Shown one piece after another: positions 4,915-19,113 of a stretch of DNA of 64,000 nt. The translations under genes and the position numbers were made by a program. The notes under the pieces are model-generated. The model was not told the origin of the DNA and made no database searches. It saw only the letters and a program-made list of their open reading frames with translations. Each line of letters begins with the position of its first letter. Within the stretch, counting starts at the first letter, position 1. The DNA lies in assembly GCF_007748115.1 (NCBI RefSeq), contig NZ_CP036289.1, positions 3,410,001 to 3,474,000 on the forward strand. Reading direction: 5' to 3'. The DNA comes from Bremerella volcania. Its GTDB lineage: Bacteria; Planctomycetota; Planctomycetia; Pirellulales; Pirellulaceae.

Positions 4915-5151
4915 CTCTCCGTACTGTCTTTGCCTATGGCACGCTGCCCCGACGATCTCGAAGTGCGCTTGGGTTCATTTAGATCATGAGCTTGTTCGTC
5001 GGCAATCGAGCATCATGGACGGACCCGCGCATCGGTGGGAGCGGGCGGAATGGTTCACTCATTGACAATTTATGTGCGGATTCGCCCACCAGGATTTCAG
5101 ACGGACGTCAGAAACGCCGTCAATTAGAGAGGAAGTTTGCTAGAAGCTTCT

Positions 5152-5167
5152 TGGCACTCCTTTTGCA
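5152..5167 (+). promoter_or_regulatory. Sigma-54 (-24/-12) promoter
   Basis: TGGCAC, five bases, TTGCA: an exact match to the sigma-54 consensus with the obligatory GG-N10-GC spacing. Transcription would start near 5178, about 107 bp before the ferritin-like gene's ATG. A sigma-54 activator gene sits 8 kb away in the same island. Confidence 0.8.
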
Positions 5168-5195
5168 CTTTCCGTATCGCATGCAGGCCATTTAG

Positions 5196-5208
5196 TGAAC
5201 AATGTTCA
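5196..5208. promoter_or_regulatory. 13-bp palindrome TGAACAATGTTCA
   Basis: Perfect inverted repeat (TGAACA-A-TGTTCA) about 18-30 bp downstream of the expected sigma-54 start site, with a second partial arm (GTGTTCAG) close behind. It could be a repressor operator in the 5' leader or an mRNA stem. The arm spacing is one base short of a Gram-positive LexA box, so I do not assign it to LexA. Confidence 0.35.
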
Positions 5209-5284
5209 TACACCTAGTTCCCATTGTGTTCAGCAACTCTCGGCACAATAACAACCGAGAGGTTTGGGCCCCGGAGACATTGCG

Positions 5285-5737
5285 ATGCCATCAAAACAGG
5301 TCAAAGACATCTTGGATCACGTCCGAGCCGTACATCACCAACTGAATAAGGCTTGCAAACAACTTTCCGCGAGCGAGCCTGACACACGTTTGCAATTGCT
5401 ACTGGATTACGTTGGACGCCACGAAGAGGCCTTCAATATTGCTCTCCGACGTTATGAAAAAGAGGCCAATGCCAAAGCAGCTATCGATACATGGCTTCAG
5501 TTTTCCGCAGACGAAACAATCAATGAAGCACTGCGTGAGATGGATCTCCATCCCGGCATGACGGCGGAGGAAATTGTCGAGCAGGTACTTTCGTTCGACG
5601 CCAAGCTTATGGCTCTTTATCGAGATCTAGCCGAATCAACGTCTTCAGCGCAAGTTCGTGAACTTTTCTCCGATTTGATCCAGATGGCCGAGGGTAAGCA
5701 GCATCAATACGCTCGAATACTGCAAGATTGGCAATAG
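5285..5737 (+). CDS. Ferritin-like four-helix protein of unknown function
   Basis: The protein has 150 residues, almost entirely helical by composition, with no signal peptide. Histidine and glutamate pairs (for example AVHHQLNKA near 15, GRHEEAF near 40, EGKQHQYARIL near the C-terminus) suggest a ferritin/rubrerythrin-like bundle, but the full diiron EXXH set is not clear, so metal binding is unproven. The ATG at 5285 has GGAG nine bases upstream, a better start than the TTG at 5264. It is expressed from the exact sigma-54 promoter at 5152. Its company (Hsp20, BON, CsrA, two-component genes) suggests a stress or stationary-phase protein. Confidence 0.6.
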   Translation: MPSKQVKDILDHVRAVHHQLNKACKQLSASEPDTRLQLLLDYVGRHEEAFNIALRRYEKEANAKAAIDTWLQFSADETINEALREMDLHPGMTAEEIVEQVLSFDAKLMALYRDLAESTSSAQVRELFSDLIQMAEGKQHQYARILQDWQ

Positions 5738-5951: not shown

Positions 5952-6422
5952 TTAGTTACTCTTCACCTCGATATGACGCGACCGGGCTTCCGGCGATTTG
6001 GGAAGCACGACGGTCAGAATGCCGTCTTTCATCATGGCGTCGATCTTGTCTTCCTCGACGGCACACGGCAGCATCGTCGATCGCGAGAAGCGTCCGCTTC
6101 GGCGTTCGATGCGGTGATAGGTCTCACCCTTCTCTTCGTTTTCCTCTTTTCGTTCCCCGCTGATCACCAACTGATTTCCATTCAATTGGATGTCGACTTC
6201 CTTGGCTTCCACCCCAGGCAGATCCAATCGAACGGTGATCTCCTTGTCCGATTCCTTCAGATCAAGGGCCGGTGACAACATCTGGCCACCCCAGATGTCA
6301 CCATTCTCATCCCAGAAGCGATGAAACATGTGTTCCATTTCTTCCCGCAATGCAGGAAGGTTGCCGCCTTGAGCCCAGGGGAATAGGCTGCGGCTTTGCC
6401 GGCTTGCAAGTGGAGCGTTCAT
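5952..6422 (-). CDS. Hsp20/alpha-crystallin family small heat shock protein
   Basis: ATP-independent holdase that keeps unfolding proteins soluble. The 156 residues show the normal layout: a variable N-terminus with FPWAQGG and a MEHMFHRFW helix, the alpha-crystallin domain from about residue 50 (ALDLKESDKEITVRLDLPGV), the conserved RRSGRFSRSTMLP stretch and the beta-8/9 turn ending KDGILTVVLPK. The C-terminus lacks a clear IXI/V anchor, which may limit large-oligomer formation. Island palindrome A lies about 148 bp upstream of the start, and a terminator follows the stop codon. Confidence 0.93.
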   Translation of the reverse strand: MNAPLASRQSRSLFPWAQGGNLPALREEMEHMFHRFWDENGDIWGGQMLSPALDLKESDKEITVRLDLPGVEAKEVDIQLNGNQLVISGERKEENEEKGETYHRIERRSGRFSRSTMLPCAVEEDKIDAMMKDGILTVVLPKSPEARSRHIEVKSN

Positions 6423-6561
6423 GGCCTTCTCCTTTTGAATGTGTCGGAGAAATAAACCAAGGCAAACCAGTTTGCCAAGGCTAACTTACTGACTGTTCAA
6501 CTTTGCTTGAATTTTCACCTTTATTGGTCAGTTCACCAATCGAGAAGAACTTGATTTCAAC

Positions 6562-6578
6562 ATGGTGGAAGCCACCAA
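6562..6578. promoter_or_regulatory. Island palindrome, site A (hsp20)
   Basis: ATGGTGG-AAG-CCACCAA, a 7-3-7 inverted repeat with only the outermost pair mismatched, between the BON gene stop and hsp20 and centred ~148 bp before the hsp20 start codon. It matches the copies at 7321, 13561 and 18307. Confidence 0.5.
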
Positions 6579-6582
6579 GCTT

Positions 6583-6882
6583 TCAAGAGCATCGCCGATC
6601 TTCTCGGCGGACGCTGCTAAGCCCGCAACTACTGACAACATCGACATTGTTCACCACTTGTTTCACCTCGGGAATGTCACGAAGCAACTCCTGGAGGTTT
6701 TGCTTGAGGTAAAAGCTCGGTACGCAACCAGTTAACGTAAGCGTTCCGTCATCAAAACTGACGCTGACTTTTCGAAAGATGAAGCCATATCGGCATTGAT
6801 CCATCCGGCGTCTTACGAGTCGCATTACAACTTCATGAGCATGTAGCTGGCTCTTTCGGTTACGGGATCTTGGGATAAGCAT
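6583..6882 (-). CDS. BON-domain protein
   Basis: A single small alpha/beta BON domain makes up most of the 99 residues: VSFDDGTLTLTGCVPSFYLKQNL (about 42-64) followed by LLRDIPEVKQVVNNVDVV. BON domains are thought to contact membranes or small ligands in stress proteins such as OsmY. No signal peptide is visible, so this copy is probably cytoplasmic. It starts 17 bp after the csrA stop on the same strand, so the two are very likely one transcript. Confidence 0.8.
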   Translation of the reverse strand: MLIPRSRNRKSQLHAHEVVMRLVRRRMDQCRYGFIFRKVSVSFDDGTLTLTGCVPSFYLKQNLQELLRDIPEVKQVVNNVDVVSSCGLSSVRREDRRCS

Positions 6883-6899
6883 CGAATGTCTTCTTCCAA

Positions 6900-7169
6900 C
6901 TAGGGGACTTGAATAACCGAGGCCGGAACGTTTTCAAGAGCGAACTGCAAGCCCGGCTTCGGAGTGGGGTGTACTTGGATAGACCCAGGTAAACTCTCGT
7001 CGGAATCCTGTTGGCCGACATCGTCACGAAGTTCCCCGCGAAGAATGGAAACTTCCGTCGGAGCCTCGATCCCCAAACGGACCGTATTGCCAGAAACTCC
7101 CAAAACCTTCACAGTAACATCTGCGCCAATGTGGATGATTTGACTGGCTTTTCGACTGAGTACCAACAT
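6900..7169 (-). CDS. csrA: Carbon storage regulator CsrA with a C-terminal extension
   Basis: RNA-binding post-transcriptional regulator that recognises GGA motifs in mRNA leaders. The first ~48 residues are canonical: MLVLSRKASQIIHIG, VTVKVLG, VRLGIEAP and VSILRGEL, with the RNA-contact arginines at the expected places. The protein runs to 89 residues, against about 60-75 usually; the tail is acidic then proline-rich and unlike the common CsrA C-terminus. It is followed by the BON gene. Palindrome B is ~160 bp upstream, with a possible sigma-54 element between. Its target could be leaders of the same island, but that is inference. Confidence 0.93.
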   Translation of the reverse strand: MLVLSRKASQIIHIGADVTVKVLGVSGNTVRLGIEAPTEVSILRGELRDDVGQQDSDESLPGSIQVHPTPKPGLQFALENVPASVIQVP

Positions 7170-7247
7170 GATTCTCCTCCATGGTTTTGATTCGACGCAG
7201 ATCTTTTTGCGCCTGGTTGTCGGGCCTTAGCGGACGGGTCGAGGTCG

Positions 7248-7263
7248 AGCGTCTTGCTTGCCA
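7248..7263 (-). promoter_or_regulatory. Possible sigma-54 promoter of csrA-BON
   Basis: On the - strand TGGCAAGCAAGACGCT: the -24 half matches (TGGCA) and GG-N10-GC spacing is right, but the -12 half (ACGCT) is poor. It sits 79 bp before the csrA start and about 60 bp downstream of palindrome B. Confidence 0.35.
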
Positions 7264-7320
7264 TGAAAAAATATGACGATTCTCTGAAGTTTTCGAAATC
7301 GAGTTAAACTCCATTTCGAC

Positions 7321-7337
7321 ATGGTGATTTCCACCAT
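7321..7337. promoter_or_regulatory. Island palindrome, site B (csrA)
   Basis: ATGGTGA-TTT-CCACCAT, a 7-3-7 inverted repeat with one mismatched pair, centred ~160 bp before the csrA start codon. Confidence 0.5.
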
Positions 7338-7587
7338 CCTCACTTTCAACAGGCCGTGAACGACTGATCAGGTCCATGTAACAGCGTTAAACAAGATACG
7401 GGCAACCTTCCCGCTAAATGCACTCCTCGAACCAAACCACCGAGTTGGGTGGAGCGGAAGCTGAGTATTGTGCGGCCCCAACAACTACTTGATGATCGTG
7501 ATTACATATTGGAACGGCTCAACTTATGATTAGTGAGCGTGGATGAACTACTTCGCTGCGGAAGCGGTGCACTGACCACATGCTTGA

Positions 7588-9471
7588 TTGGGCGTTCGCG
7601 TGTCCGATATTCAACCAAATACGCTGTCTCTCACTGTGCTCGTAATCGAAAGCGCTCCGGATACGCGCGGTCATATTCAAGACGTCATCGAGCACGATGG
7701 ACACCATGTCCGCTTAGCGTCATCATTCGATGAGGCAATTGAGCAGGGAGATTGGCAAGAGATAGACGTCATTTTGCTAGACACGGAACTTGCATGCGGA
7801 GATGCCCGTGAAATACTTCCCCGCTTGCGAAGGCTCGCCCCGCATGCGGCTATCGTATACGCCGCCAGCAATCCCAACGTTGAAGATGCCGTCCAGACGC
7901 TTCGCGAGGGAGCGTACGACTATCTCCTAAAGCCCATCAATGCGGATATTCTACGAGCAACTTTGCTGCGAATCAGCCAGCTCAGTTACACCAGGGCTTC
8001 TTTGAAACTCGAAACGGACGCTCGGCAATATGCCGAGAATCAGCATCGTTTGCTTGCCGAAGCAATTGCCCACCTAGGGGAAGGCGTTGTGATCACCAAG
8101 ACCGAGTTCAATGGTTCGTGTCCGCGCATCGTATTTGTCAACGAAGCGATTTGCCGGATTACTGGGTACCATAAGACCGAACTTTTGGGCGAAACGCCTG
8201 AGATCTTTCACGGAGAAAATACGGATTCGCAGTCCGTCGAAGAGGTGTCCGAGGCAATTCACGCTCGTCGCCCGTTTCAGGGGGAGTTGCTCTTTTATCG
8301 GAAGGACGGAACGACCTATGACGCGGAAATCATCTGTACACCGATGATTGATTCGGAAGGCCGCTGTACCAACTATGTTTCCATACATCGCGACATTACC
8401 GAGAAGATTAGATCCGCTCGTCAACTTAGCGAACGAGAATCGCGGCTGCGCGCGATTCTTCAAACGGCAACCGATGCCATCGTGACGATCGATCCGAAGG
8501 GAATGATAGTCGGTGTCAATCCGGCCACATTACGGATCTTCGGCTACGAAGAAAGGGAACTGATCGGCACCAACGTAAGCATTTTGATGCCGGAGCCCTA
8601 TCGGAGCGAACACGACGATTATCTTTCCCGCTACTTGCGAACAGGCGAAGCCCGAATCATCGGCATCGGACGAGAGGTTATCGCCAAAAAGAAAGATGGA
8701 TCGACGTTTCCCGTTCATCTGGCAGTCAGCCGAATCGATGCCCCACCTCTGTTCACCGGCATCATTCGCGATATATCCGCGCTTAAGGAATTGCAAAAAC
8801 AAGTGCTGGAGATTGCTGCCGAAGAAGACCGTCGTATCGGTCATGAACTGCATGACAGCGTTCAGCAACAACTTACCGGGCTGGGCCTACTCTCACAAAC
8901 CGTAGCCGAGATGCTCTCGGATTCGAACGACTGGGAGGCTCGCTGTCAACCGACGGTGGCCAAGGTGGCTCGGCTGGCTGACCGCGTCGCTCGAGGCATA
9001 AGCGAAGCCGCGCGCGAAGTCCATAACCTTTCGCGCGGACTGGTCCCCGTGGAGATCGATGCGGAAGGGCTTCGAGCCGCACTGGAAGAACTCGCCGAGC
9101 GAGTCAGCATACAATATGGAGTTGTTTGCGCGTGTGAATTTCGGGGCGACATCAACCTGACCAACAATTTCGTTGCAACGCATCTATTCCGAATCGTTCA
9201 GGAGGCGGTTACGAATGCCATGAAGCATGGGGACGCTTCGCGAATTGATATTCGACTGGTAGGCACGGACCGAACAATCTCGCTGGAAGTTATCGACAAC
9301 GGGCGGGGCATTCAAACGGGAACGCTATCCAATCTGGGAACGGGGCTTAAGATCATGCAGTACCGCTCTAGTTTGATCGGAGGCGTCATCAAGATCGTTC
9401 CCGGTCCAGATGGTGGCACGCTCGTCAACTGCACTGTTTCCCGCGAAGGCAATCTTGAGGTGACACACTAG
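7588..9471 (+). CDS. REC-PAS-PAS sensor histidine kinase (HisKA_3 type)
   Basis: Cytoplasmic sensor kinase, 627 residues, with no membrane segment. Order: an N-terminal receiver domain (about 14-135; phospho-acceptor Asp65 in VILLDTELA, Lys in LLKPINAD), PAS 1 (~155-275, closing VSIHRDITEK), PAS 2 (~285-400, closing IIRDISALK), then a HisKA_3 helix with His422 in GHELHDSVQQQ and an HATPase_c domain (IVQEAVTNAMKHG, VIDNGRGIQ, GTGLKIMQ). The receiver placed before the kinase lets it take input from another kinase. The start is unsure: TTG 7588 or GTG 7600, neither with a good ribosome site. Its partner regulator follows after one base. PAS 2 resembles FixL-type sensors, so a redox or oxygen signal is possible. 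Confidence 0.88.
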   Translation: MGVRVSDIQPNTLSLTVLVIESAPDTRGHIQDVIEHDGHHVRLASSFDEAIEQGDWQEIDVILLDTELACGDAREILPRLRRLAPHAAIVYAASNPNVEDAVQTLREGAYDYLLKPINADILRATLLRISQLSYTRASLKLETDARQYAENQHRLLAEAIAHLGEGVVITKTEFNGSCPRIVFVNEAICRITGYHKTELLGETPEIFHGENTDSQSVEEVSEAIHARRPFQGELLFYRKDGTTYDAEIICTPMIDSEGRCTNYVSIHRDITEKIRSARQLSERESRLRAILQTATDAIVTIDPKGMIVGVNPATLRIFGYEERELIGTNVSILMPEPYRSEHDDYLSRYLRTGEARIIGIGREVIAKKKDGSTFPVHLAVSRIDAPPLFTGIIRDISALKELQKQVLEIAAEEDRRIGHELHDSVQQQLTGLGLLSQTVAEMLSDSNDWEARCQPTVAKVARLADRVARGISEAAREVHNLSRGLVPVEIDAEGLRAALEELAERVSIQYGVVCACEFRGDINLTNNFVATHLFRIVQEAVTNAMKHGDASRIDIRLVGTDRTISLEVIDNGRGIQTGTLSNLGTGLKIMQYRSSLIGGVIKIVPGPDGGTLVNCTVSREGNLEVTH

Positions 9472-9472
9472 A

Positions 9473-10135
9473 ATGGGTTCAACATCATCTCCCAGCCGAA
9501 TTCTTATTGTTGACGACCATCCGATCGTCCGCGAAGGATTGGCCGCTCGCATCGACGGTCAACCAGATCTTGAGGTTTGTGGGGAAGCAAGCGGTATCAA
9601 TGATGCCTTGTCCCAGTATCGTTCTCTTTCGCCCGACTTAACGCTCGTGGATATCCAGTTGGAAGATGGAAATGGGATCGAACTGATCAAGGAGATTTAC
9701 TCCCGCAATTCGACCGCGAAGATGCTAGTTGTCTCAGCCTTTGATGAGTCGCTTTATGCGAATCGAGCCCTACGGGCTGGGGCGCTCGGGTATGTTAACA
9801 AGCGAGAGCTACAGGATAAGGTAATCGACGCGATCCGAACGGTTCTCAAAGGTGATCGCTACCTAAGTCCTAAAATGACGCAGCAACTTCTCAGCCAGGT
9901 CGTATCCAATAAAACAACCATGGACGAGGATCCCATCCAGCGTCTTAGTGATCGGGAACTGGAAGTGTTTCAGCTAATCGGCCATGGCAAAACTACGGCG
10001 GCTATCGCCGCGCAATTACAGCTAAGCGTCCATACGATTGATACTCACCGTGAGAAACTACGCCACAAATTGGGGGCGAAAAATAGCGCGGAATTGATGA
10101 AGCTGGCCGTCCAGTGGGTATTGGAAAACGGCTGA
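9473..10135 (+). CDS. NarL/FixJ-family response regulator
   Basis: The protein has 220 residues: a receiver domain with acid pair Asp14/Asp15, phospho-acceptor Asp60 (LTLVDIQLED) and Lys in GYVNKRE, then a LuxR-type helix-turn-helix (LSDRELEVFQLIGHGKTTAAIA and SVHTIDTHREKLRHKLGA). All key residues are present. It begins one base after the kinase stop, so the two form a cognate pair in one operon. Targets are unknown; the neighbouring stress genes are the obvious candidates. Confidence 0.93.
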   Translation: MGSTSSPSRILIVDDHPIVREGLAARIDGQPDLEVCGEASGINDALSQYRSLSPDLTLVDIQLEDGNGIELIKEIYSRNSTAKMLVVSAFDESLYANRALRAGALGYVNKRELQDKVIDAIRTVLKGDRYLSPKMTQQLLSQVVSNKTTMDEDPIQRLSDRELEVFQLIGHGKTTAAIAAQLQLSVHTIDTHREKLRHKLGAKNSAELMKLAVQWVLENG

Positions 10136-10153
10136 TTCCCCGACTAGATCACC

Positions 10154-11167
10154 TTATGAGTCCATCAAGAGAACTTTGGCACCCTTGACACTTCCCTGTT
10201 TCAACTCCATGAGTGCCCGATTCGCTTCCTCCAGCGGGTAAGCAGTGACCGTCGAGCGAAGAGAAATCTCAGCCGCCAGCGGCAAGAATTCGCGAATATC
10301 ATAGTGCGTGATGTTTGCGACCGTCTTCACTTCCCGCTCCATCCACAGATGCTCGTGGTAGCTGAGTTGAAGAAGTCGTTCTTTGTCTGCATCCTCCTTG
10401 CGAATCGCATTGATGACCAGCCGCCCACCTGGCGCCAGATTGGCCAACCCCTCAACGACGGGCTGCCAAGCTGGCGTTGTGTCGATGATGGCGTCCAGAG
10501 GCACGGGGGCACGATCCGTAGTGTGTCCTGCCCACTCAGCCCCGAGTTCCCGGGCAAAGACTTGTTGATCCGGATCACGGGCAAACACAAAGATTTTCGT
10601 CCGTGGAAATTGATGCCTTACCATCTGCAGAACCAGGTGCGCCGACCCACCAAACCCGGTCAGGCCAAGAGTCCGTCCGTCCTTGATGCCTGTCAGTCGC
10701 ACGGCTCGATAGCCGATGGCTCCGGCACACAATAGTGGAGCGGCTTCGGCATCAGAAAAACTTGAGGGAATCGGATAGGCGTAGTCCGACGGTACCGTCA
10801 TAAACTCGGCATATCCGCCATTAACGTCTCTGCCTGTAGCACGAAACTTGGGGCTGATGTTCTCCCGCTCATCGCCACTGGACGAATGAATCCAACCGAC
10901 GCCAACTCGATCACCGACGCGATGACTTACGACGCCATCTCCGACTTCGTCGACATAACCGACGACTTCATGTCCCGGCACAATCGGCAAGTTGGGCGGA
11001 GCCGTTCTTCCTTCGATTTCATCTAGCTCCGTATGGCAGACGCCACATGCGGCAATTCTGATCCGTATTTCGCCTCGGACGGGACGCGGCGTGGGAACGT
11101 CAACGAGTTCCAGCGGTGTCGAAACATCGCGAAGTGACACCACTTGGCGGAGTATTTGGGCCCTCAT
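10154..11167 (-). CDS. Zinc-dependent alcohol dehydrogenase lacking the structural-zinc loop
   Basis: Medium-chain NAD(P)-dependent dehydrogenase, about 337 residues. The ATG at 11167 has AGGAGG five bases upstream and is preferred over the GTG two codons earlier. Catalytic zinc ligands are present: Cys41 (CGVCHTEL), His66/Glu67 (PGHEVVG) and Cys147 (LLCAGAIGY), plus the glycine-rich Rossmann turn LTGFGGSAHL. Where relatives carry the four-cysteine structural-zinc loop, this protein has only HSSSGDERENISPKF, with no cysteine and a deletion of several residues. It is probably still an alcohol/aldehyde oxidoreductase, perhaps with altered oligomerisation. Substrate is unknown. Confidence 0.87.
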   Translation of the reverse strand: MRAQILRQVVSLRDVSTPLELVDVPTPRPVRGEIRIRIAACGVCHTELDEIEGRTAPPNLPIVPGHEVVGYVDEVGDGVVSHRVGDRVGVGWIHSSSGDERENISPKFRATGRDVNGGYAEFMTVPSDYAYPIPSSFSDAEAAPLLCAGAIGYRAVRLTGIKDGRTLGLTGFGGSAHLVLQMVRHQFPRTKIFVFARDPDQQVFARELGAEWAGHTTDRAPVPLDAIIDTTPAWQPVVEGLANLAPGGRLVINAIRKEDADKERLLQLSYHEHLWMEREVKTVANITHYDIREFLPLAAEISLRSTVTAYPLEEANRALMELKQGSVKGAKVLLMDS

Positions 11168-11349
11168 CAACACCTCCTACGCGCCACGTCCCCCAAGTTC
11201 ATCGATACTATGCTAGGGCGTAACTTGGCGACTGTCGTTTTTCGACCTAAGCACTTCACTCGAATGGATTGCGTCGATATTCCATTGTCGTCATCGAAGG
11301 AATATTGAGAAGACCATTGTTCTAGGCTCCGACGGACGAGGCCGATTAG

Positions 11350-12009
11350 TTATTCGTTGTCTTTTGATGGTAAGTATTTAGAGAACCAATCTCCAGTCAA
11401 CCGTGCCACGTGCTCTAATACACTTGGTTCCGTTAGCGGCCGTGCTGCGTCACTTACGAGTTCGAGGTGCTTAACGCAGCTAAGTTTATTGAGAGCTTTT
11501 CGATTCAATGAGATCGCACATTCATCGTCCCCTCCGACCATCAGCAGCGTGGGGACCGTCACTTTTGGAAGGTATGCTTTCGCCAAGTCAGGGCGACCTC
11601 CCAAGGATACGACCGCCCCCAGACTGGTACCACTCAAAGCCGCCGCGACCAATGCAGCTGCAACACTAGTACCAAACCCGAAACAGCCCTGGGGGAGACT
11701 AGCAATCATTGGCTGATCCCGCGCCCAGCTCTCGACTTCTCGCAGTCGTAGGGCTAGAAGAGGAATGTCAAAAAAACACCAGGGGTCGCTCGCTTCACAC
11801 TCATTCAGCAAGTCAATTAACAATGTGGCGAATCCCCTCTCTTGCAATGCCAGCGAGATATTCTGCGTTTCAGAACCCATCCGACTACGCCTATCGCCTT
11901 GGGCGACCAAGATCAGTCGTTTGGCTCCCGGCGGAACGCAAAGTGTACCAGGCATTTTTTCTGGTCCGATTAGAACGTTCGACTCGTGTGCGGCTACACA
12001 AATGGCCAT
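11350..12009 (-). CDS. Dienelactone-hydrolase-like alpha/beta-hydrolase, probable pseudoenzyme
   Basis: The protein has 219 residues from the ATG at 12009 (an upstream TTG would add 12). It aligns by eye to the dienelactone hydrolases that accompany stress islands: GFATLLIDLL, FDIPLLALRLR, VVSLGGRPDLA, PTLLMVGGDDE. The nucleophile elbow usually written GASTG is GFGTS here, so the catalytic serine position is Gly113 (a serine sits two places later). The histidine expected in GATHLFEEP is replaced in DAARPLTEP by Arg190. The acid position (Asp161/162) is kept. A catalytic role is doubtful; binding or scaffolding is possible. It lies 88 bp downstream of the sigma-54 activator gene and may share its transcript. 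Confidence 0.72.
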   Translation of the reverse strand: MAICVAAHESNVLIGPEKMPGTLCVPPGAKRLILVAQGDRRSRMGSETQNISLALQERGFATLLIDLLNECEASDPWCFFDIPLLALRLREVESWARDQPMIASLPQGCFGFGTSVAAALVAAALSGTSLGAVVSLGGRPDLAKAYLPKVTVPTLLMVGGDDECAISLNRKALNKLSCVKHLELVSDAARPLTEPSVLEHVARLTGDWFSKYLPSKDNE

Positions 12010-12097
12010 TGTTATGCCCTTTGAGCTGCTATGGATACTCGTCAAACCTGGTTAATTTCAGAACACGTCACTCGACCAACAGAGACTCTCCAACTCG

Positions 12098-13435
12098 TCA
12101 CACGATCTGATACTTTTCCAACAGACGGTATAAGCTACGACGGCTCACACCTAAAGCGCGGGCTGCGCGGACTTTGTTCCCTTTCTCTCGCGACATGACC
12201 ACTTCTATCTGCTGGCGCATCAACGATTCCAAGTCATCATTTCGGGGAGGGATGGAACGACTTGCCGCAGATGTGCACTGAGCGACCTCTGTCGGCAGGT
12301 TCTGTAAAAGGATCGTCTCGTCGTCGGACAAGATCTTGGCTCGTTCAAGGGCGTTAATCAGTTGGCGGATATTTCCAGGCCAGTGGTACCGCTCGATGGC
12401 CTCCATTGCATCCATATCGATTTGCCAATCATTGCCCATGAAGTGATGCGTCAGCAAGGCAATGTCATCTCCTCGATGGCGTAGTGGAGGCAACTCAAGT
12501 CGCATCACGTCGATTCGATAAAACAGATCTTCCCGGAACCGTCCCTCTTTGACCTCTTGGAAGAGGTTTCGATTCGTGGCCGTGAGCAAACGAACGTTCA
12601 CACGTCGTTCCTCAGTCCCGCCAACACGCCGAAACGAACCATCCTCCAAGACACGCAAAAGTTTGGCTTGAATGCCACCGGCCATCTCACCGATTTCATC
12701 GATGAACATGGTTCCTCCGTCGGCGAGTTCAAACAAGCCCGGCTTGGTACTCGCAGCTCCTGTAAAAGCCCCCTTTTCGTGACCGAAAAGCTCACTCTCG
12801 GGTAAAGCAGCACAGTTCACGACCACCATCGGTTGATCTGCTCGATGGCTTACCTGATGGACGGCCTTGGCGACCAATTCCTTGCCCGTCCCGCTTTCTC
12901 CCTGGATCAGAATTGGTTGTTCCGTAGGACCGGCACGTTTGATCAGACGAAATACTTCCTGCATGGGGGCTGATTGCCCGACCATCAATGACCTTTTTCC
13001 ATGCCTGTTATGTGGACGTCCGTTAACTGATTGGCGTTGTCGGCGAGTCGCCTTGAACGCATTCTCGACGGTCTTCTGCAGTCGCGACATCCGCACCGGC
13101 TTGGGCAAATAGTCGAACGCACCAGCCTTGAGCGCTTCGACGATCGACTCTGCAGCTGAGATTTCAGACACACATACGACTTCACAAGCAGCTCTCTCCT
13201 TAAGTTGCCGAAGTCTTTGCAGTGAAGCTGGCGTGACTGACGCCATTTCGAATATGATGACATCGTAGTCGGCTCGATCGACTCGTTGAAGCGACTGATG
13301 CTCGTGTTCAACTTGATCGACATGGACCGTCTGGCTGCTAAGAAACTCAGTCACGATTTGTCGGAAACGTGGATCACTATCAACCAACAGCAAACGACAA
13401 GGAAAAGCACTGGGGGCCGGTTCAGTAATGTTCAT
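12098..13435 (-). CDS. Sigma-54-dependent NtrC-family activator with Asp-to-Glu receiver
   Basis: The protein has 445 residues. The receiver (about 14-125) has the acid pair Asp19/Asp21 and Lys in LPKPVRM, but the phospho-acceptor place in DYDVIIFEMASV is Glu63 rather than Asp. The AAA+ domain is intact: Walker A GESGTGKE, the sigma-54-contacting GAFTGA loop, Walker B GTMFIDEIGEM and the arginine-finger region. A Fis-type helix-turn-helix ends the protein (VRAARALGVSRRSLYRLL). The exact sigma-54 promoter at 5152 is a natural target. Perfect palindrome D lies 134 bp upstream of its own start, which suggests autoregulation; this is inferred. Confidence 0.92.
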   Translation of the reverse strand: MNITEPAPSAFPCRLLLVDSDPRFRQIVTEFLSSQTVHVDQVEHEHQSLQRVDRADYDVIIFEMASVTPASLQRLRQLKERAACEVVCVSEISAAESIVEALKAGAFDYLPKPVRMSRLQKTVENAFKATRRQRQSVNGRPHNRHGKRSLMVGQSAPMQEVFRLIKRAGPTEQPILIQGESGTGKELVAKAVHQVSHRADQPMVVVNCAALPESELFGHEKGAFTGAASTKPGLFELADGGTMFIDEIGEMAGGIQAKLLRVLEDGSFRRVGGTEERRVNVRLLTATNRNLFQEVKEGRFREDLFYRIDVMRLELPPLRHRGDDIALLTHHFMGNDWQIDMDAMEAIERYHWPGNIRQLINALERAKILSDDETILLQNLPTEVAQCTSAASRSIPPRNDDLESLMRQQIEVVMSREKGNKVRAARALGVSRRSLYRLLEKYQIV

Positions 13436-13578
13436 CCTGACTTCCTTGAATGGGAGCGATATCAGCGCTGATTCATCGGGTACTTCGTGGGCGCATGCGC
13501 CTAACTCCCAATATCGGCGTACCGCCGCTTGTCGGTAATCAGAGAATTCACCGCCTCGCGATGGCGGTTTCCGCCATC
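13436..13578. promoter_or_regulatory. Upstream region of the sigma-54 activator gene, cut by the IS
   Basis: This 143-bp stretch contains palindrome D at its IS-proximal end. I found no GG-N10-GC sigma-54 promoter for the activator gene here and no coding sequence. Confidence 0.4.
13561..13577. promoter_or_regulatory. Island palindrome, site D (sigma-54 activator)
   Basis: ATGGCGG-TTT-CCGCCAT, a perfect 7-3-7 inverted repeat (with one further pair outside, GAT/ATC) that ends one base before the left end of the IS at 13579. It is centred ~134 bp before the sigma-54 activator start. Confidence 0.6.
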
Positions 13579-13590
13579 TGACCTGCCCCC
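13579..13590 (+). repeat. IS left terminal inverted repeat
   Basis: TGACCTGCCCCC, perfectly matched in inverse at 14849-14860. Confidence 0.9.
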
Positions 13591-13602
13591 TTCAACAGCG
13601 TC

Positions 13603-13630
13603 CATTCGGTAAATTAGTTTTTGCTGAATG
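13603..13630 (+). other. Conserved stem in the IS mRNA leader
   Basis: CATTCGG (13603-13609) and CTGAATG (13624-13630) form a seven-pair stem with one G-U and a 14-base loop, 26 bases before orfA. The related fragment at 44220-44247 has CATTCGG/CCGAATG, so pairing is kept (G-U to G-C) while the sequence differs. Confidence 0.4.
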
Positions 13631-13656
13631 CATGCCCATTTGAAGGGAGATTTCTT

Positions 13657-13935
13657 ATGCCTAGAAGAAGATTCACGCCTGAGCAGATCATCCAGCATCT
13701 CCGCGAAGCGGAGGTGCTTCTCTCTCAGGACAAGACGATTGCCCAGGCCTGCAAGGCGATCGGCGTCACGGAGCAGACTTACTATCGCTGGCGGAAGGAG
13801 TACGGCGGTGTTCGTACCGATCAGGCCAAGCGTTTGAAAGAGCTCGAGAAGGAGAATGCTCGCCTGAAGCGACTGCTGGCTGATGCCGAACTCGACAAGG
13901 CGATCCTGAAGGAAGCCGCTTCGGGAAACTTCTGA
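13657..13935 (+). CDS. IS3-family transposase OrfA
   Basis: DNA-binding helix-turn-helix subunit, 92 residues. Starting at the ATG at 13657 (GAAGGGAG eight bases upstream) it reads MPRRRFTPEQIIQHLREAE, a helix-turn-helix around AIGVTEQTYYRWRKEYGG, then a leucine-zipper-like coiled coil rich in KELEKENARLKRLLADAEL that mediates dimerisation. It ends at TGA 13933-13935 just past the slippery heptamer. The OrfAB fusion made by frameshifting would be the active transposase, as known for IS3 elements. Confidence 0.92.
   Translation: MPRRRFTPEQIIQHLREAEVLLSQDKTIAQACKAIGVTEQTYYRWRKEYGGVRTDQAKRLKELEKENARLKRLLADAELDKAILKEAASGNF
13923..13929 (+). promoter_or_regulatory. Programmed -1 frameshift heptamer G GGA AAC
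   Basis: In the orfA frame the codons are GGA AAC, preceded by G, giving the X-XXY-YYZ slippery pattern three bases before the orfA TGA. A -1 slip continues as CTT CTG AGC (LLS), straight into the open orfB frame. Confidence 0.6.
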
Positions 13936-13967
13936 GCCCGGACAAGCGACGGCGAATCGTCGAGCAC

Positions 13968-14831
13968 GTGCGAGATACTTTGGGACGCGAGCGAGTATCA
14001 GAACGGAGGGCCTGCCGGGTGCTGGGACAGCCTCGTTCCACTCAGCGCCGTGTTCGCTGGGTCCCCGACGACGAGCCTCGCCTGGTCCGGGAGATGATTG
14101 AACTTGCTGAACAGTATGGCCGTTATGGCTATCGGCGAATCACTGAGATGTTACGCCGGAAAGGTTGGCAGGTGAACCATAAACGCATCGAACGCTTATG
14201 GCGTCGCGAGGGCTTGAAAGTACCAAAAAGGCAGCCGAAACGACGTCGCCTGTGGCTTAATGATGGTTCGTGCGTTCGCCTGCGGCCGAGTCATCGTGAT
14301 GAGGTCTGGAGCTATGACTTCGTGCATCACCGAACGCACGATGGTCGAGCCTTCCGTATGCTGACGCTGATCAACGAGTATACTCGCGAGTGCTTGGCGA
14401 TCGATGTGGCTCGTCAACTGACCAGCGAGGATGTCTTGGAGCGTCTTAGCGACCTGTTCGTTCGCCGTGGCGTGCCAGACTTCATTCGCAGCGACAACGG
14501 CTCAGAGTTCACCGCCACTAAGGTCCGTGACTGGCTGGAGCGAGTCGAGGTGAACACCCTGTACATCGAACCTGGCAGCCCGTGGGAGAATGGCTACATC
14601 GAATCCTTCAACGGGAAGCTGCGAGATGAACTACTCGATCGAGAGATCTTCGACACGCTGCTGGAGGCAAAAGTGTTGATCGAACGGTGGCGAGTCGAGT
14701 ACAACACGGTACGCCCGCACAGTTCGCTGGGGTACCGTCCACCGGCACCGGAGGCAATTCTTCCAGGGGAAGCTGCTTCCGCTACGCTCCAGCACCTTCC
14801 CCTGGAAGAATCCTTGAAGACTACAACTTAA
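13968..14831 (+). CDS. IS3-family transposase OrfB (DDE integrase core)
   Basis: The protein has 287 residues from the GTG at 13968; the frame is open further upstream past the orfA stop (KLLSPDKRRRIVEHV), consistent with production as an OrfAB fusion. An HTH_21-like segment (YGRYGYRRITEMLRRKGW) precedes the rve integrase core, with catalytic Asp in WSYDFVHH, Asp in RSDNGSEF and Glu in SPWENGYIESFNGKLRDE, then the usual YNTVRPHSSLGYRPP ending. The DDE set is complete, so the element may be active. Confidence 0.92.
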   Translation: MRDTLGRERVSERRACRVLGQPRSTQRRVRWVPDDEPRLVREMIELAEQYGRYGYRRITEMLRRKGWQVNHKRIERLWRREGLKVPKRQPKRRRLWLNDGSCVRLRPSHRDEVWSYDFVHHRTHDGRAFRMLTLINEYTRECLAIDVARQLTSEDVLERLSDLFVRRGVPDFIRSDNGSEFTATKVRDWLERVEVNTLYIEPGSPWENGYIESFNGKLRDELLDREIFDTLLEAKVLIERWRVEYNTVRPHSSLGYRPPAPEAILPGEAASATLQHLPLEESLKTTT

Positions 14832-14848
14832 AGACTGGTTTCATTCGT

Positions 14849-14860
14849 GGGGGCAGGTCA
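14849..14860 (-). repeat. IS right terminal inverted repeat
   Basis: GGGGGCAGGTCA, the inverse of the left end. The reading frame of the truncated downstream gene begins immediately after it. Confidence 0.9.
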
Positions 14861-14871
14861 GTGCCCGACTG

Positions 14872-16068
14872 ATGAAAACCTTCGGCCCCCTGGAGGCCGT
14901 CACACAGCCGACGCCAGATCCCGGAGAGAAGAACCTTCACGAGTGCCACTGGAAGCCGTCGCTACACATACAGATCCCACCAAATTGGTTGAGTGGCGTT
15001 TACATTGGGAGGCTCACAACCATTCCCCAACCGGGTGAGCCCTATTGGCAAAGCTACATTATCTTTGTCGTCCGAGACGATCGTCCCGCCGACATTCTCT
15101 TTCAGGTGAGCGACAACACTTGGCAAGCCTACAATCGTTGGCCGAACAATTATTCGATCTACACCCATCCCCGTGGAGTTCAAGGTCCATGGGCGGATGT
15201 TAGTTTTGACCGCCCCTACGCCCGCGAAGCCCAACACAACGGAGTGGTCGACGACCCACGAACGGTAGGTTCTGGTGAGTTCCTCCCTTTCGAGTTTCCA
15301 CTCGCCTATTGGTTGGAACAGCACGGCTACGATGTCACGTATTGTTCCAACAGCGATATGCTTTCTCCCGAAAAGGGGTTGAAGTGTAAGACGTTTATCA
15401 GCGTTGGACACGATGAATACTGGGACCTCCGGCAATTCCACTCCGTCGAAAAGTTGCGGGACGAAGGAGTGAATCTTCTATTCCTTTCCGGAAACAGCGT
15501 CTGCTGGGTAACGCCTTTCCGCGATAGCAGCGCCGGCGTGGCTAATCGCATCATCTTTCGCGGAGGCCCCTACGGAGGGAACCAATCGTACGCCGTGACA
15601 CGCGAGCAAGAGCATGGCCCGTTTCCGCGTCATGGACCAGACGAAGGGATGCTCATGGGCGCGCGAAATGTCGAGCCCGTGAACGGTGGAGGTGACTGGA
15701 CGATCACTCGTCCCGATCATTGGATCTTTTCCGGTACCGGAGTCAAGCAGGGCGAATCGATCCCTGGATTGGTCGGCTGGGAATACCATGGCAATCCTCC
15801 AGCGATTGATGGGCTGGAAGTGGTCGCCGGCGGAACCGCCTGGCAGGGAGGCGTGAATCCTCAACAGTGGACCGCAACCATCTACCCCGGGCCCAAAGGC
15901 AACTTTGTCTTCAACGCGGCAACCATCTTCTGGGCCCAAGGGCTGAGTAGCCCGCCTGGGCATGTACTGCCCTGGTCGCATTGGAGTCGACCACACGGCC
16001 CAGATGCCCGCGTACAGCAGATTACGCATAATCTGCTTCGTCGGGCCCTAGGTGTTACGGCTGTTTAA
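14872..16068 (+). CDS. N,N-dimethylformamidase large-subunit-like protein, 5' end lost to the IS
   Basis: The 398 residues match the C-terminal catalytic-type domain of DMFase-beta-like proteins (PF20254): YIIFVVRDDRPADILFQ, NTWQAYNRWPN, SFDRPYAR, FPLAYWLEQHGYDVTYCSN, SVGHDEYWDLRQF and FLSGNSVCW. Relatives have a longer N-terminus with a signal sequence. Here the frame is open from the ATG back to the exact IS end (Ser-Ala-Arg-Leu-Met), and nothing similar lies on the far side of the IS, so the 5' part has been removed, not just interrupted. Without its N-terminus and export signal the product is probably non-functional. Glutamine amidotransferase-like fold is an inference. Confidence 0.75.
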   Translation: MKTFGPLEAVTQPTPDPGEKNLHECHWKPSLHIQIPPNWLSGVYIGRLTTIPQPGEPYWQSYIIFVVRDDRPADILFQVSDNTWQAYNRWPNNYSIYTHPRGVQGPWADVSFDRPYAREAQHNGVVDDPRTVGSGEFLPFEFPLAYWLEQHGYDVTYCSNSDMLSPEKGLKCKTFISVGHDEYWDLRQFHSVEKLRDEGVNLLFLSGNSVCWVTPFRDSSAGVANRIIFRGGPYGGNQSYAVTREQEHGPFPRHGPDEGMLMGARNVEPVNGGGDWTITRPDHWIFSGTGVKQGESIPGLVGWEYHGNPPAIDGLEVVAGGTAWQGGVNPQQWTATIYPGPKGNFVFNAATIFWAQGLSSPPGHVLPWSHWSRPHGPDARVQQITHNLLRRALGVTAV

Positions 16069-16092
16069 TCGTCTGATTAAGGAATAGTTCGC

Positions 16093-18252
16093 ATGGTCTT
16101 GCGTTCCCTACTTGCCCTGGTATTCATTCTGTCGACCGCATGCTCTTATGGCGACGGACTCTCCCTCAAATCCATTCACGTTCCAGAGGGCTACAAGGTC
16201 GAGTTGGCCGCCCCAGCGTCCCTGGTCCGTCACCCAATGATGGCAGACTTCGACGAACAAGGGAGGCTTTACGTAGCGGCAAACGCGGGCGAGAACCTTC
16301 CCCGAGCCGAACTGGAAAAACAGCTTCCCAACTTTATTCGACGATTGGAAGACACGGACGGAGACGGTGTATTCGACCAGGCAACGACATTCGCCGATCG
16401 CATGACATTCCCTCAAGGATGTCTCTGGTTGGATGGGTCGCTTTACGTCGCGTCGAGCGGTGCCATCTGGAAGCTCACCGATACGGATGATGATGGCGTA
16501 GCCGACCAGAGGCAAAAGCTGGTCGGAGACTTTGGCTACACCGGCAACGCGGCGGACGTTCACGGTCCCTTCCTAGGCCCGGAGGGCAGAATCTATTGGT
16601 GTGAAGGACGCCACGGACACGAAATATTGGACGACGAGGGGAAAATCATCAGCAAGGGAAAAGCCGCTCGCATCTTTTCGTGTCGCACTGATGGAAGTGA
16701 CGTGCAAACCTTCGCGACCGGTGGCATGGACAATCCGGTCGAGATTGTCTTCACCCCGGAAGGAGACATGCTCGGAACAGTCAACTTGATGTACGCCCAG
16801 CCACGGGGCGACTGTCTGGTCCATTGGCAATATGGCGGTGTTTACCCACGCGAGGACTTCGCGGAAAGCCTCGAACAGGAGTTCATTCGCACCGGCCCAC
16901 TCTTGCCGGAACTCTACAACTTCGGACATGTGGCGGTGTCAGGACTTTGTCAGTTCGAAGGCAACGGCTGGGGACCGGATACCAGCGGGTCGTTGTTCGT
17001 CACTCAATTCAATACCAATAGGGTTGTCCAGGTTCATTTGAAGCCCCATAAATCAACCTACGAAGTGAAGGAAGTCGAAGACTTTCTTGTGTCCAGCGAC
17101 AAAGATTTCCATCCGACGGACGTACTGCAATCACCCGATGGATCGCTGTTGGTCATTAACACCGGCGGATGGTTTCGAATCGGTTGCCCTCAATCTAGCG
17201 TTGCAAAATCACACATCCACGGTGGTATCTATCGCATTCGACGAACAGAACTTACCCAGCAACCCGCAAACGATACCAAACCACAAAGAACATCAGACAT
17301 TGAGCACCTCTGGCAAATTCGCCGAAAAGCATCGAACAAATCTCTCAGCGAACTAGGGAAACAATTAAAATCTGAGAATCCGACAATACGTCAGATCGCC
17401 GCTCGTGCTTTGCTTGACGTTCCGCCTGGACCGACTCGAGATCAATCGATTCCCCAGCTTGCTCAACTGGCGGCCCAGGGTTCACCGTCCGAGAGGCGGA
17501 ATGCGATCGCCACGCTCAGCCGTTGGGAAGTCAACGACGATCAATACACAAGCACGCTGCTTGAGATACTGCCGCATACCCAGAATGACCCTATGCTTCA
17601 TCACGCGGTGATTTTAGGGTTGATTCGTGGTGGTCGACGGGACCTACTTCGCCAAGCCGTCCTCGATCCCAATCCCACAGTCAGCGGCGGTGCCTCTTTG
17701 GCATTGGCCGAGCTTCATCGGCTCTCCGAGAAAAAAGTAGCCAGCCAATGGTTGGACATTCCAGCACCGTCGTTGGGAGAACCTCTTACCCTGCCGCAAC
17801 AGCAAATGCTTCTCCAAATGGAGTCCCGACTCGACGACGGCAATCCAATCCGTGGCCGCGAAGTTTTCTTTTCAACTCAGGCGACCTGTAGCAAATGCCA
17901 TCGCGTTGCTGATCGCGGAGGTCAAGTTGGCCCCAACTTAAGTACCATCGGTCGCAGTCGTTCTCGTCGCGATTTGTTGGAATCAATCCTCTTTCCCAGT
18001 GCCACGTTTGCGCGAGGTTTTGCTCCTTACATAGTTGCCACGTCCGATGGCAAAACCCATAGCGGCATCATACTTGGCGAAGGAACGGATCAGCTACGAC
18101 TAGGGCTCGATCAGGAAAAGTCCATAAGCCTACCCAACGCATCTATTGAAGCAATTCGAGGCAGCAATAGCTCCATTATGCCGGCGGATATCCAAAAAAC
18201 TCTCTCTGAGAGGCAACTCGCCGACTTACTCGCCTTTCTGCAGTCGCTTTAG
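16093..18252 (+). CDS. Exported PQQ-propeller-like / HEAT / c-type heme domain protein
   Basis: The protein has 719 residues with signal peptide MVLRSLLALVFILSTACS (a possible lipobox STAC). Residues ~25-385 are the putative membrane-bound dehydrogenase propeller of planctomycetes and Verrucomicrobia (TIGR02604 type: VPEGYKVELAAP, DFDEQGRLYVA, DTDGDGVFDQ repeats). HEAT-like helices follow (~400-570), then a C-terminal heme-binding domain (TIGR02603 type) with the single c-heme site CSKCH at 599-603 and VGPNLSTIG. It probably oxidises a sugar-like compound and passes electrons to its heme in the periplasm. It lies 24 bp after the truncated DMFase-like gene, so they may have been one operon. 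Confidence 0.85.
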   Translation: MVLRSLLALVFILSTACSYGDGLSLKSIHVPEGYKVELAAPASLVRHPMMADFDEQGRLYVAANAGENLPRAELEKQLPNFIRRLEDTDGDGVFDQATTFADRMTFPQGCLWLDGSLYVASSGAIWKLTDTDDDGVADQRQKLVGDFGYTGNAADVHGPFLGPEGRIYWCEGRHGHEILDDEGKIISKGKAARIFSCRTDGSDVQTFATGGMDNPVEIVFTPEGDMLGTVNLMYAQPRGDCLVHWQYGGVYPREDFAESLEQEFIRTGPLLPELYNFGHVAVSGLCQFEGNGWGPDTSGSLFVTQFNTNRVVQVHLKPHKSTYEVKEVEDFLVSSDKDFHPTDVLQSPDGSLLVINTGGWFRIGCPQSSVAKSHIHGGIYRIRRTELTQQPANDTKPQRTSDIEHLWQIRRKASNKSLSELGKQLKSENPTIRQIAARALLDVPPGPTRDQSIPQLAQLAAQGSPSERRNAIATLSRWEVNDDQYTSTLLEILPHTQNDPMLHHAVILGLIRGGRRDLLRQAVLDPNPTVSGGASLALAELHRLSEKKVASQWLDIPAPSLGEPLTLPQQQMLLQMESRLDDGNPIRGREVFFSTQATCSKCHRVADRGGQVGPNLSTIGRSRSRRDLLESILFPSATFARGFAPYIVATSDGKTHSGIILGEGTDQLRLGLDQEKSISLPNASIEAIRGSNSSIMPADIQKTLSERQLADLLAFLQSL

Positions 18253-18306
18253 CCAGAGTACCCGGACTAACACCACGGGGTTTCGGAAGGCAGGCGAGCT
18301 TGGGGA

Positions 18307-18323
18307 ATGGCGGATTCCACCAT
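18307..18323. promoter_or_regulatory. Island palindrome, site C (ATP synthase relic)
   Basis: ATGGCGG-ATT-CCACCAT, a 7-3-7 inverted repeat with one mismatched pair, 59 bp before the ATG of the decayed atpD. Confidence 0.5.
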
Positions 18324-18381
18324 GCACAAAACGGGAATCCTTAGATTTCATAAGTGAGGGATCACATCGTACAATAGGCGC

Positions 18382-19113
18382 ATGAGTCCACATTCAGATA
18401 ACGCATCAGCCAGCGGTGTCGTCACGACCGTTCGAGGAACGGTTCTGGATGTTCAATTCGATGGAACAAGCCCGGCAATCGGAACAGGTCTGTATTGCCA
18501 AGTTTCTGAGGATAGTGTGATTACTGCGTACGTGCATTCCCATCTGGGAGAAGGCGCGGTACGGGCCATCGCGATCGACTCGACGCGGGGACTAAGTCTT
18601 GGATGGCAAGTGACAAGCGATGGCCGGCCGATTGATGTGGTTGTTGGAGACGAGTTGTTAGGCCGCGTGGTTGACTTGAAGGGAAGTCCTTTGGACGGCG
18701 GGGCAACGATTAAAGCGGTAACACGATGGCCGCTTCATCGAACTCCGCCGCCCCCCTCTGAACGGAGAACCGGCAACGAGATTTATTCAACCGGCATCAA
18801 AGTGATCGACTTGTTTTGTCCTTTCACATTGAGCCAGGCCTTGTCTTGGTTACGACTGCCGGCCAAACAACCTTTGATGGAACAGCCGGTGGGTTATTCC
18901 GCTGCGATGGCCAACAAGCGAGCCTCCTGACGCCGCTTGCGGTGTACGGAACGGACATGCTGAACGTGGCCAACCAGTTAGAAGCCGCACTGGATAAACC
19001 CAGCGTCGAACTTGAGGCACGGGAGACTTTTTGGACGCCTTGAGCGTAGCATACTCCGCGAATTACAAGATAGCGGTGACGACATGGTACAACCAAGTGA
19101 GAAAGGCGCCTGA
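18382..19113 (+). pseudogene. Relic of an alternative (N-type) F1Fo ATPase locus: atpD 5' part, possibly joined to atpC 3' part
   Basis: Residues 1-149 of the first frame are a clear F1 beta subunit N-terminus: VVTTVRGTVLDVQF, VRAIAIDSTRGLSLGW, LLGRVVDLKGSPLDGG, then TGIKVIDLFCPFT, exactly where the P-loop should follow. The P-loop and everything catalytic are missing and the frame ends in unrelated residues at 18930. A second frame continues with GQTTFDGTAGGLFRC and LLTPLAVYGTDMLNVANQLEAAL, and a third with RLERSILRELQDSGDDM to a stop at 19113. The latter two resemble the epsilon (AtpC) end of N-ATPases, but that match is tentative. Several indels are needed, so the locus is dead. Confidence 0.7.

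Follow-up and report, generated by a model that had tools for sequence, protein, structure and literature searches.

A recurrent palindrome as the probable operator of a NarL/LuxR-type response regulator in two stress-gene islands of Bremerella volcania

The island and its four palindromes

The stretch of DNA considered here, referred to below as the window, comprises 64,000 nucleotides of the Bremerella volcania genome (C1:3410001-3474000 of G000, 6,496,182 bases) and harbours an island in which one short palindrome precedes several genes. The predicted targets are genes for an Hsp20 protein (5952-6422, reverse strand; PF00011); for CsrA (6900-7169, reverse strand; PF02599) together with a BON-domain protein directly 3' of it (6583-6882, reverse strand; PF04972); for a sigma-54 activator with a receiver, an AAA+ domain bearing GAFTGA and a Fis-type helix-turn-helix (12098-13435, reverse strand); and for the N-terminal piece of an apparently broken ATP synthase alpha/beta-type subunit (18382-18930, forward strand; PF02874 and the list of open reading frames, ORFs). 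The same island encodes a histidine kinase (7588-9471, forward strand), in which Pfam recognises a receiver, two PAS domains, HisKA_3 and HATPase, and a response regulator of the NarL/LuxR family (9473-10135, forward strand; Pfam Response_reg and GerE), which is proposed here as the reader of the palindrome.

The sequence ATGGYGRNNNCCRCCAW starts at 6562, 7321, 13561 and 18307 with no mismatch, as the original prediction had stated, and its absence from the rest of the window holds at zero to one mismatch: the scan at one mismatch returned the same four places on the opposite strand and nothing further. At up to two mismatches the window contains 19 strand-matches against 5.79 expected, a number reached by none of 100 shuffles. 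All four copies are located between likely genes, barring two unsupported small ORFs from the mechanical ORF list (7024-7377 and 18146-18385) that overlie two of them, so their description as intergenic is upheld. The centre of the palindrome is 148 bp from the start codon of hsp20, 160 bp from that of csrA, 134 bp (site 13561) from that of the sigma-54 activator gene and 67 bp from that of the ATP synthase relic; the range of 134-160 bp given earlier for three sites, and the position of one copy ahead of the activator gene, are therefore both correct. The 17-bp palindrome proposed at that stage also stands, its 7-3-7 form being refined here to a core 15-mer of 7-1-7 type, TGGYGGAWTCCRCCA, while two further elements had been missed. 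In all four sites a GATT box lies exactly 21 nt past CCA on the gene side and is followed by a -10-like hexamer.

The predicted operator of hsp20 (6562-6578, reverse strand) is accompanied by GATT at 6538-6541 and GAAAAT at 6511-6516, and that of csrA-BON (7321-7337, reverse strand) by GATT at 7297-7300 and CATATT at 7270-7275; the csrA genes of genomes G001 and G002 are preceded by the same element. For the sigma-54 activator gene the predicted operator (13561-13577, reverse strand), which is kept in G001, is followed by GATT at 13537-13540 and GATATT at 13510-13515. The predicted operator of the ATP synthase relic (18307-18323, forward strand) has GATT at 18344-18347 and TACAAT at 18370-18375, and the RNA is predicted to start at or beside the ATG at 18382. 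Two peculiarities of these places may be recorded. An intact composite promoter stands ahead of an apparently broken ATP synthase alpha/beta-type gene (18382-19043), and an IS3-type element (13579-14860; inverted ends TGACCTGCCCCC and GGGGGCAGGTCA) is separated by 1 base from the operator at 13561-13577 and lies on its far side from the controlled gene.

A composite promoter and its distribution

The arrangement seen in the window defines a composite element: TGGYGGAWTCCRCCA, followed by GATT 21-22 nt on and, at 46-47 nt from the palindrome, by a -10-like box. Its parts were counted in a set of 60 sites from 24 regions, taken at one mismatch or fewer and not picked by their downstream sequence. 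GATT occurs at offset 21 in 23 of the 120 flanks (0.61 expected), the strongest of approximately 17,000 word/position tests; in 28 of the 60 sites one flank or both have it at offset 21 or 22. A separate promoter set of 40 sites, picked by palindrome and GATT-likeness and reduced to 37 once near-copies were removed, has the consensus TGGYGGAWTCCRCCA and A/T-rich columns at offsets 47-52. A hexamer with at least four of six matches to TATAAT is present at 46/47 in 27 of these 37 promoters (other offsets: mean 1.1, maximum 4). The same hexamer is found in nine of 20 previously unused sites that a scan of 241 family genomes had supplied (control mean 0.5, maximum 2), and in two of three more unused sites that had been omitted earlier. 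Setting the -10 box at -12 to -7 puts the centre of the palindrome at about -66 and GATT at about -37 to -34, where the box is conserved and may be contacted by the regulator. An arrangement with the palindrome at -41.5 and GATT itself as the -10 element was dropped once the -10-like box had been found 46-47 nt downstream. The counts do not bear out a fixed distance from palindrome to -10 box regardless of GATT; among the six promoters with GATT at 22, four have the hexamer, all at 47. By eye, GATT and an upstream GAAT could form an inverted repeat or two degenerate operators in tandem; their conservation is weak.

In the 6.5-Mb genome the composite TGGYGGNNNCCRCCA-N21-GATT, at one mismatch or fewer, occurs in 18 places, all of them inside C1:1861214-1943184 or the window island; at up to two mismatches there are 59 places, against eight with the reversed pattern. 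The scatter over random and often coding positions that the original prediction had named as refuting it did not occur for the composite, which at one mismatch or fewer is confined to two stretches. A slightly looser pattern for the palindrome gave five sites within 16 kb (C1:1926769-1943185), and many of its matches elsewhere in the genome are ATGGCGATNACCACCAA and coding-like in appearance (not checked singly).

This second island contains, by eye, genes for CsrA, GroEL, Hsp20, alcohol dehydrogenase (ADH) and BON proteins, and, by Pfam, for an S-adenosylmethionine (SAM) synthetase, a PAC2 protein, an MFS protein, a universal stress protein (USP), an NfeD protein and a PAS kinase. It also encodes a further kinase, related to that of the window and possessing the FixL-type residues, followed by a LuxR-type regulator with 55% identity to the window regulator; the ORF list of this island showed no NtrC-type gene. 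Some of its promoters are borne by segmental duplications: 1896248-1897572 is identical (100%) to 1917300-1918624, and part of groEL is duplicated at 97.8%. Such duplications, up to 1325 bp long at 100% identity, are found across C1:1861093-1924718 (loci L261-L264 and L025) and include composite promoters in divergent arrangement, together with csrA/BON-like genes and groEL.

In the window, the genes faced by composites include hsp20, csrA-BON, the sigma-54 activator gene and the ATP synthase relic; elsewhere they include groEL (two copies), two hsp20 genes, the genes for SAM synthetase, the NfeD protein and a YflT-type protein, a BON-like gene before csrA (two copies), a further BON-like gene, and genes for a receiver-only protein and a 478-aa protein. 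The MFS gene has a composite in front and no clear -10 box, and the composite at 1918609 faces just a 150-aa ORF without a Pfam match. A gap of 6 nt separates the -10 box from the start codon of the ATP synthase relic and likewise from that of the 478-aa protein (1926882), and leaderless mRNAs are predicted from it. The spacing from palindrome to start is 58 nt for the 478-aa protein and identical in G545. This protein (L025:11882-13318; L346) has no Pfam match and shows primase-like motifs by eye; its start is 6 nt past the predicted -10 in both genomes, making its mRNA a candidate leaderless one. In G026 (L194:6757-7902), a palindrome with a near-GATT box, GATC, stands ahead of a gene for a baeRF-family protein (PF18849).

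Within the phylum the tight composite was present in four of 294 genomes, which are all four sampled from the family of the window, and the control gave 0 matches. A similar composite occurs in 31 of the 241 family genomes (one control match overall), so most members of the family lack it at such stringency. Beyond this family, composite sites accompany the regulator in further families of the order (G072, G080 and G084). A looser composite was discarded as a presence test over a panel of 98 genomes, being too unspecific.

The regulator and its partner kinase

Among solved structures the regulator is closest to VraR (3.3e-34), followed by NarL (3.5e-32), DevR (1.5e-29) and FixJ (1.7e-10); its named relatives include Roseiconus nitratireducens (Pirellulales). 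Its association with the palindrome was followed through the 98-genome panel, with a clear ortholog defined by E below 1e-40. The strict palindrome is present in 25 of the 98 genomes and a clear regulator ortholog in 39, with both in 16 (Fisher p 0.008). In these 16 genomes, 17 of the 34 strict sites are no more than 12 kb from the ortholog, where 0.16 would be expected; the linked sites are spread over 11 of the 16 genomes, and an 18th site lies at 12.3 kb. For comparison, two of the 34 strict sites (G000 and G026) are within 12 kb of a close NtrC relative, and both are also near the regulator. The genome G063 has six strict palindromes, TGGCGGAWTCCGCCA, on six contigs, none of which is the contig of the regulator ortholog; they may form a dispersed regulon or reflect a different role of the motif.

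The recognition helix varies together with the site. In an alignment of 24 regulators, of which 16 were counted as site-bearing and seven as lacking a nearby site, the helix reads LS[VT]HTI[DE] in 16/16 site-bearing proteins, and its His is replaced by Lys or Ser in five of the seven site-less ones (G064, G079, G093, G008 and G035); the resulting table, 16/0 against 2/5, gives a Fisher p of 6e-4. In this count L062, which has the His and a one-mismatch palindrome without GATT, was omitted, G032, with such a palindrome, was counted as site-bearing, and coding-like one-mismatch matches in G008 and G093 were scored as no site. In 17 regulators from other phyla the His is replaced by Lys (16) or Arg (one). 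Among the named loci, of which 27 out of 80 retrieved were examined for the operator, composite sites were found in L058, which is probably the same genome as G003, and in L061, and one composite with one mismatch in L072, from another phylum.

The second PAS domain of the window kinase (8434-8796, forward strand) matches the heme domain of FixL (1d06, E 4.4e-34) and keeps a His and an Arg at the positions of the proximal heme ligand and of the distal residue. Pfam detected no GAF domain in this kinase at E 0.001. The FixL-type pair is present in 15 of 23 kinases: where the region has a site, 14 of 17 carry it (with L062 and L209 scored among these regions), and elsewhere one of six does.

The proposed circuit, its rivals and related systems

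The sites, their near-fixed geometry, their confinement to two stretches, the linkage to the regulator, the co-variation of the helix and the kept PAS residues are features that can be read from the DNA itself, and on their strength we consider it highly probable that the palindrome is the operator of the NarL/LuxR-type regulator paired with the FixL-type-PAS kinase, serving a low-oxygen-type regulon in two islands. We infer binding, phosphorylation, an oxygen signal, and activation rather than repression. In the proposed sequence of events, a drop in oxygen, or in another heme ligand, would lead the kinase to phosphorylate the regulator (9473-10135), a dimer of which would occupy TGGYGGAWTCCRCCA centred at about -66, with weak additional binding at GATT as a probable aid. 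The regulator would then recruit a sigma-70-type RNA polymerase to the -10 box 46-47 nt beyond the palindrome, from which the transcription start is predicted, and switch on the genes for Hsp20, CsrA-BON, GroEL, SAM synthetase, the NfeD protein, the sigma-54 activator and others. Its paralog in the second island would read the same operator. Since an operator stands ahead of the sigma-54 activator gene, the activator would itself be a target and a second-tier regulator, possibly acting at a promoter at 5152. The earlier suggestion of one undescribed regulon across the sites is retained, and no such regulon was met among the literature matches listed.

Several observations weigh against this reading. 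No composite site faces the kinase-regulator operon of the window, so autoregulation is not seen. A clear regulator ortholog is lacking in nine of the 25 genomes with the strict palindrome, which implies that some strict sites mean something else; conversely, five of 20 regulator regions have no site at one mismatch or fewer, and in those of G093 and G008 the sole site is coding-like in appearance (not checked). The helix His is found in G074 with no site near, in G018 with a strict site on another contig only, and at L059, L060, L062 and L065 with no composite site, and is therefore insufficient. The looser composite is weakly specific, with at least one match in 81 of the 98 genomes. On the side of the signal, the G046 kinase lacks the FixL-type His in spite of a site, no PAS alignment was obtained for the kinases of G044 and G032, and the case for oxygen consists of two residues and homology. 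Finally, the statistics ignore kinship among the sequences; related sequences are not independent, which makes the p-values optimistic.

The reader favoured by the original prediction was the local NtrC-type activator, which would bind the palindrome as an enhancer of sigma-54 promoters. The placement of three sites 134-160 bp ahead of start codons, one of them before the activator gene itself, and the GAFTGA motif and Fis-type helix-turn-helix of the protein fit such a role. However, none of the four sites has a -24/-12 box in the interval to its gene, where a sigma-70-type -10 box at a near-fixed distance is found instead. The island-type NtrC (at least 63% identity) exists in only three of the 98 genomes (G000, G001 and G026; others reach about 60% at best), and ten regions (G002, G003, G004, G007, G084, G072, G046, G031, G080 and G044) have the palindrome near the LuxR-type regulator without any NtrC relative. 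G002, for example, has kinase, regulator, csrA, hsp20 and a composite site and is missing the island-type NtrC, whereas in G035 an NtrC relative (53%) lies approximately 5 kb from the regulator and the palindrome is absent there. The second island has many sites and no such activator in its ORF list, and the one sigma-54 promoter identified before an island gene, at 5152, bears another palindrome. NtrC was for these reasons rejected as the reader, and enhancer function has become very improbable; it is the two-component LuxR-type regulator, offered earlier as the alternative, that the linkage (17/34) and the helix His support. Another DNA-binding protein common to both islands, with the regulator linked to the sites through co-inheritance, is unlikely, even though the islands move as blocks, nine of the 25 genomes with the strict palindrome lack a clear regulator ortholog, and the annotation of regions covered relatives of the island's own genes only, so that an unfamiliar protein would be missed. 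In the more distant genomes G072, G046, G044 and G080, kinase, regulator and site are joined in the company of few other relatives of island genes, and the recognition helix tracks the presence of the site.

The same operator and regulator might also respond to a signal other than oxygen (nitric oxide, carbon monoxide, redox state or another ligand) or act mainly in repression. This is a possible reading, though clearly the less likely one: PAS domains with heme can bind more than one gas, a receiver and an additional PAS domain are present in the kinase, and G046 combines a site with a kinase without the His, but the His and Arg are kept in 14 of the 17 kinases from site regions, the targets (Hsp20 and GroEL, with USP and ADH nearby) resemble those of hypoxia regulons, and an operator upstream of a near-fixed -10 box suits activation better than repression. 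A dispersed repeat or a chance motif with no regulatory role is a barely credible reading of the palindrome. Some copies do lie within segmental duplications and one adjoins the IS3-type element; their flanks, however, are mostly unrelated (37 of the 40 promoters remain after removal of near-copies), the spacing of GATT and -10 box is kept, and the composite places are limited to two stretches.

The sigma-54 activator retained as a target of the regulator has features of its own. Where such proteins usually have the phospho-Asp, those of the window and of G001 carry Glu, and that of G026 carries Asp; the Glu-bearing protein is possibly independent of phosphorylation and governed by its own expression. 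A strict sigma-54 scan gave one promoter-like place before an island gene, TGGCACTCCTTTTGC at 5152-5166 (forward strand), and one within coding sequence, at 11674. The former precedes the gene at 5279, lacks the main palindrome, is matched by the pattern in G026 and, by eye, recurs in G001 and G002, where C replaces the first T. A different palindrome, GTGCGGATTCGCCCAC (5074-5089, forward strand; by eye also in G001, G002 and G026), sits 78 bp upstream of it and may serve as a sigma-54 enhancer bound by NtrC, which would make the gene at 5279 a possible target of that protein; G002 has this palindrome but no island-type NtrC. Within 5074-5737 the promoter and second palindrome precede a gene for a 152-aa protein without a Pfam match. 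A genome-wide NtrC regulon based on GTGCGRNNYCGCYCAC was rejected, being at background level (18 against 24 in the control).

The DosR/DevR dormancy regulon of Mycobacterium and the OsdR system of Streptomyces use heme-linked sensing, as is proposed here; the heme kinases DosS and DosT are of GAF type, unlike the FixL-type PAS kinase described here. The present system resembles DosR/DevR and OsdR in having a NarL-subfamily response regulator (receiver plus GerE), palindromic operators and stress genes clustered about the regulator, and the conserved GATT box at about -37 to -34 may be a counterpart of their element at -35. The proximal site commonly overlaps -35 in the DevR promoters analysed (PMC3029386), and USPs, heat-shock proteins and a zinc alcohol dehydrogenase are among the clustered targets of DosR/OsdR-type systems (PMC5069765). 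The OsdR operator, AGGGCCGATCGGCCCT (PMC5069765), is of another type than TGGYGGAWTCCRCCA. DevR is not the top PDB relative of the regulator, VraR and NarL scoring higher, and the strong palindrome centred at about -66 and the presence of CsrA-BON and a sigma-54 activator among the targets also differ from DosR. With FixL-FixJ, an oxygen-sensing system, it shares a LuxR/NarL-type partner and a kinase whose PAS domain has its nearest match in the heme domain of FixL and retains the His and Arg; however, that partner is nearer VraR, NarL and DevR than FixJ, and FixLJ targets fixK and nif genes, for which no search was made here, in contrast to the stress genes predicted. The lxa (low-oxygen-activated) locus of Burkholderia cenocepacia is a compact stress-gene island with six USPs and induction at low oxygen (PMC9104464). 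The compactness is similar, while lxa is proteobacterial and a common operator or regulator is not shown, the palindrome not having been searched for there. No planctomycete operator of this kind was found among the literature matches listed, which were limited to open-licence papers.

To our knowledge, and among the literature matches listed, the operators of Planctomycetes have hardly been described. On balance we lean, if only slightly, towards an oxygen-dependent dormancy regulon that is the order's own and evolved independently of DosR, with a FixL-type heme kinase, a NarL-type regulator that brings a new pair of recognition helix and operator, a rigid promoter of palindrome, GATT and -10 box, two paralogous circuits sharing one operator in a single chromosome, some leaderless mRNAs and a captured sigma-54 activator as second tier. 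The analysis provides a defined operator together with a promoter architecture suited to genome scans; it also identifies the proposed regulator, its kinase and a set of predicted targets, so that a low-oxygen or dormancy response in this phylum can be tested directly. The exchange of His for Lys or Ser in the recognition helix, tracking the presence or absence of the operator, represents a natural experiment in the specificity of the NarL family.

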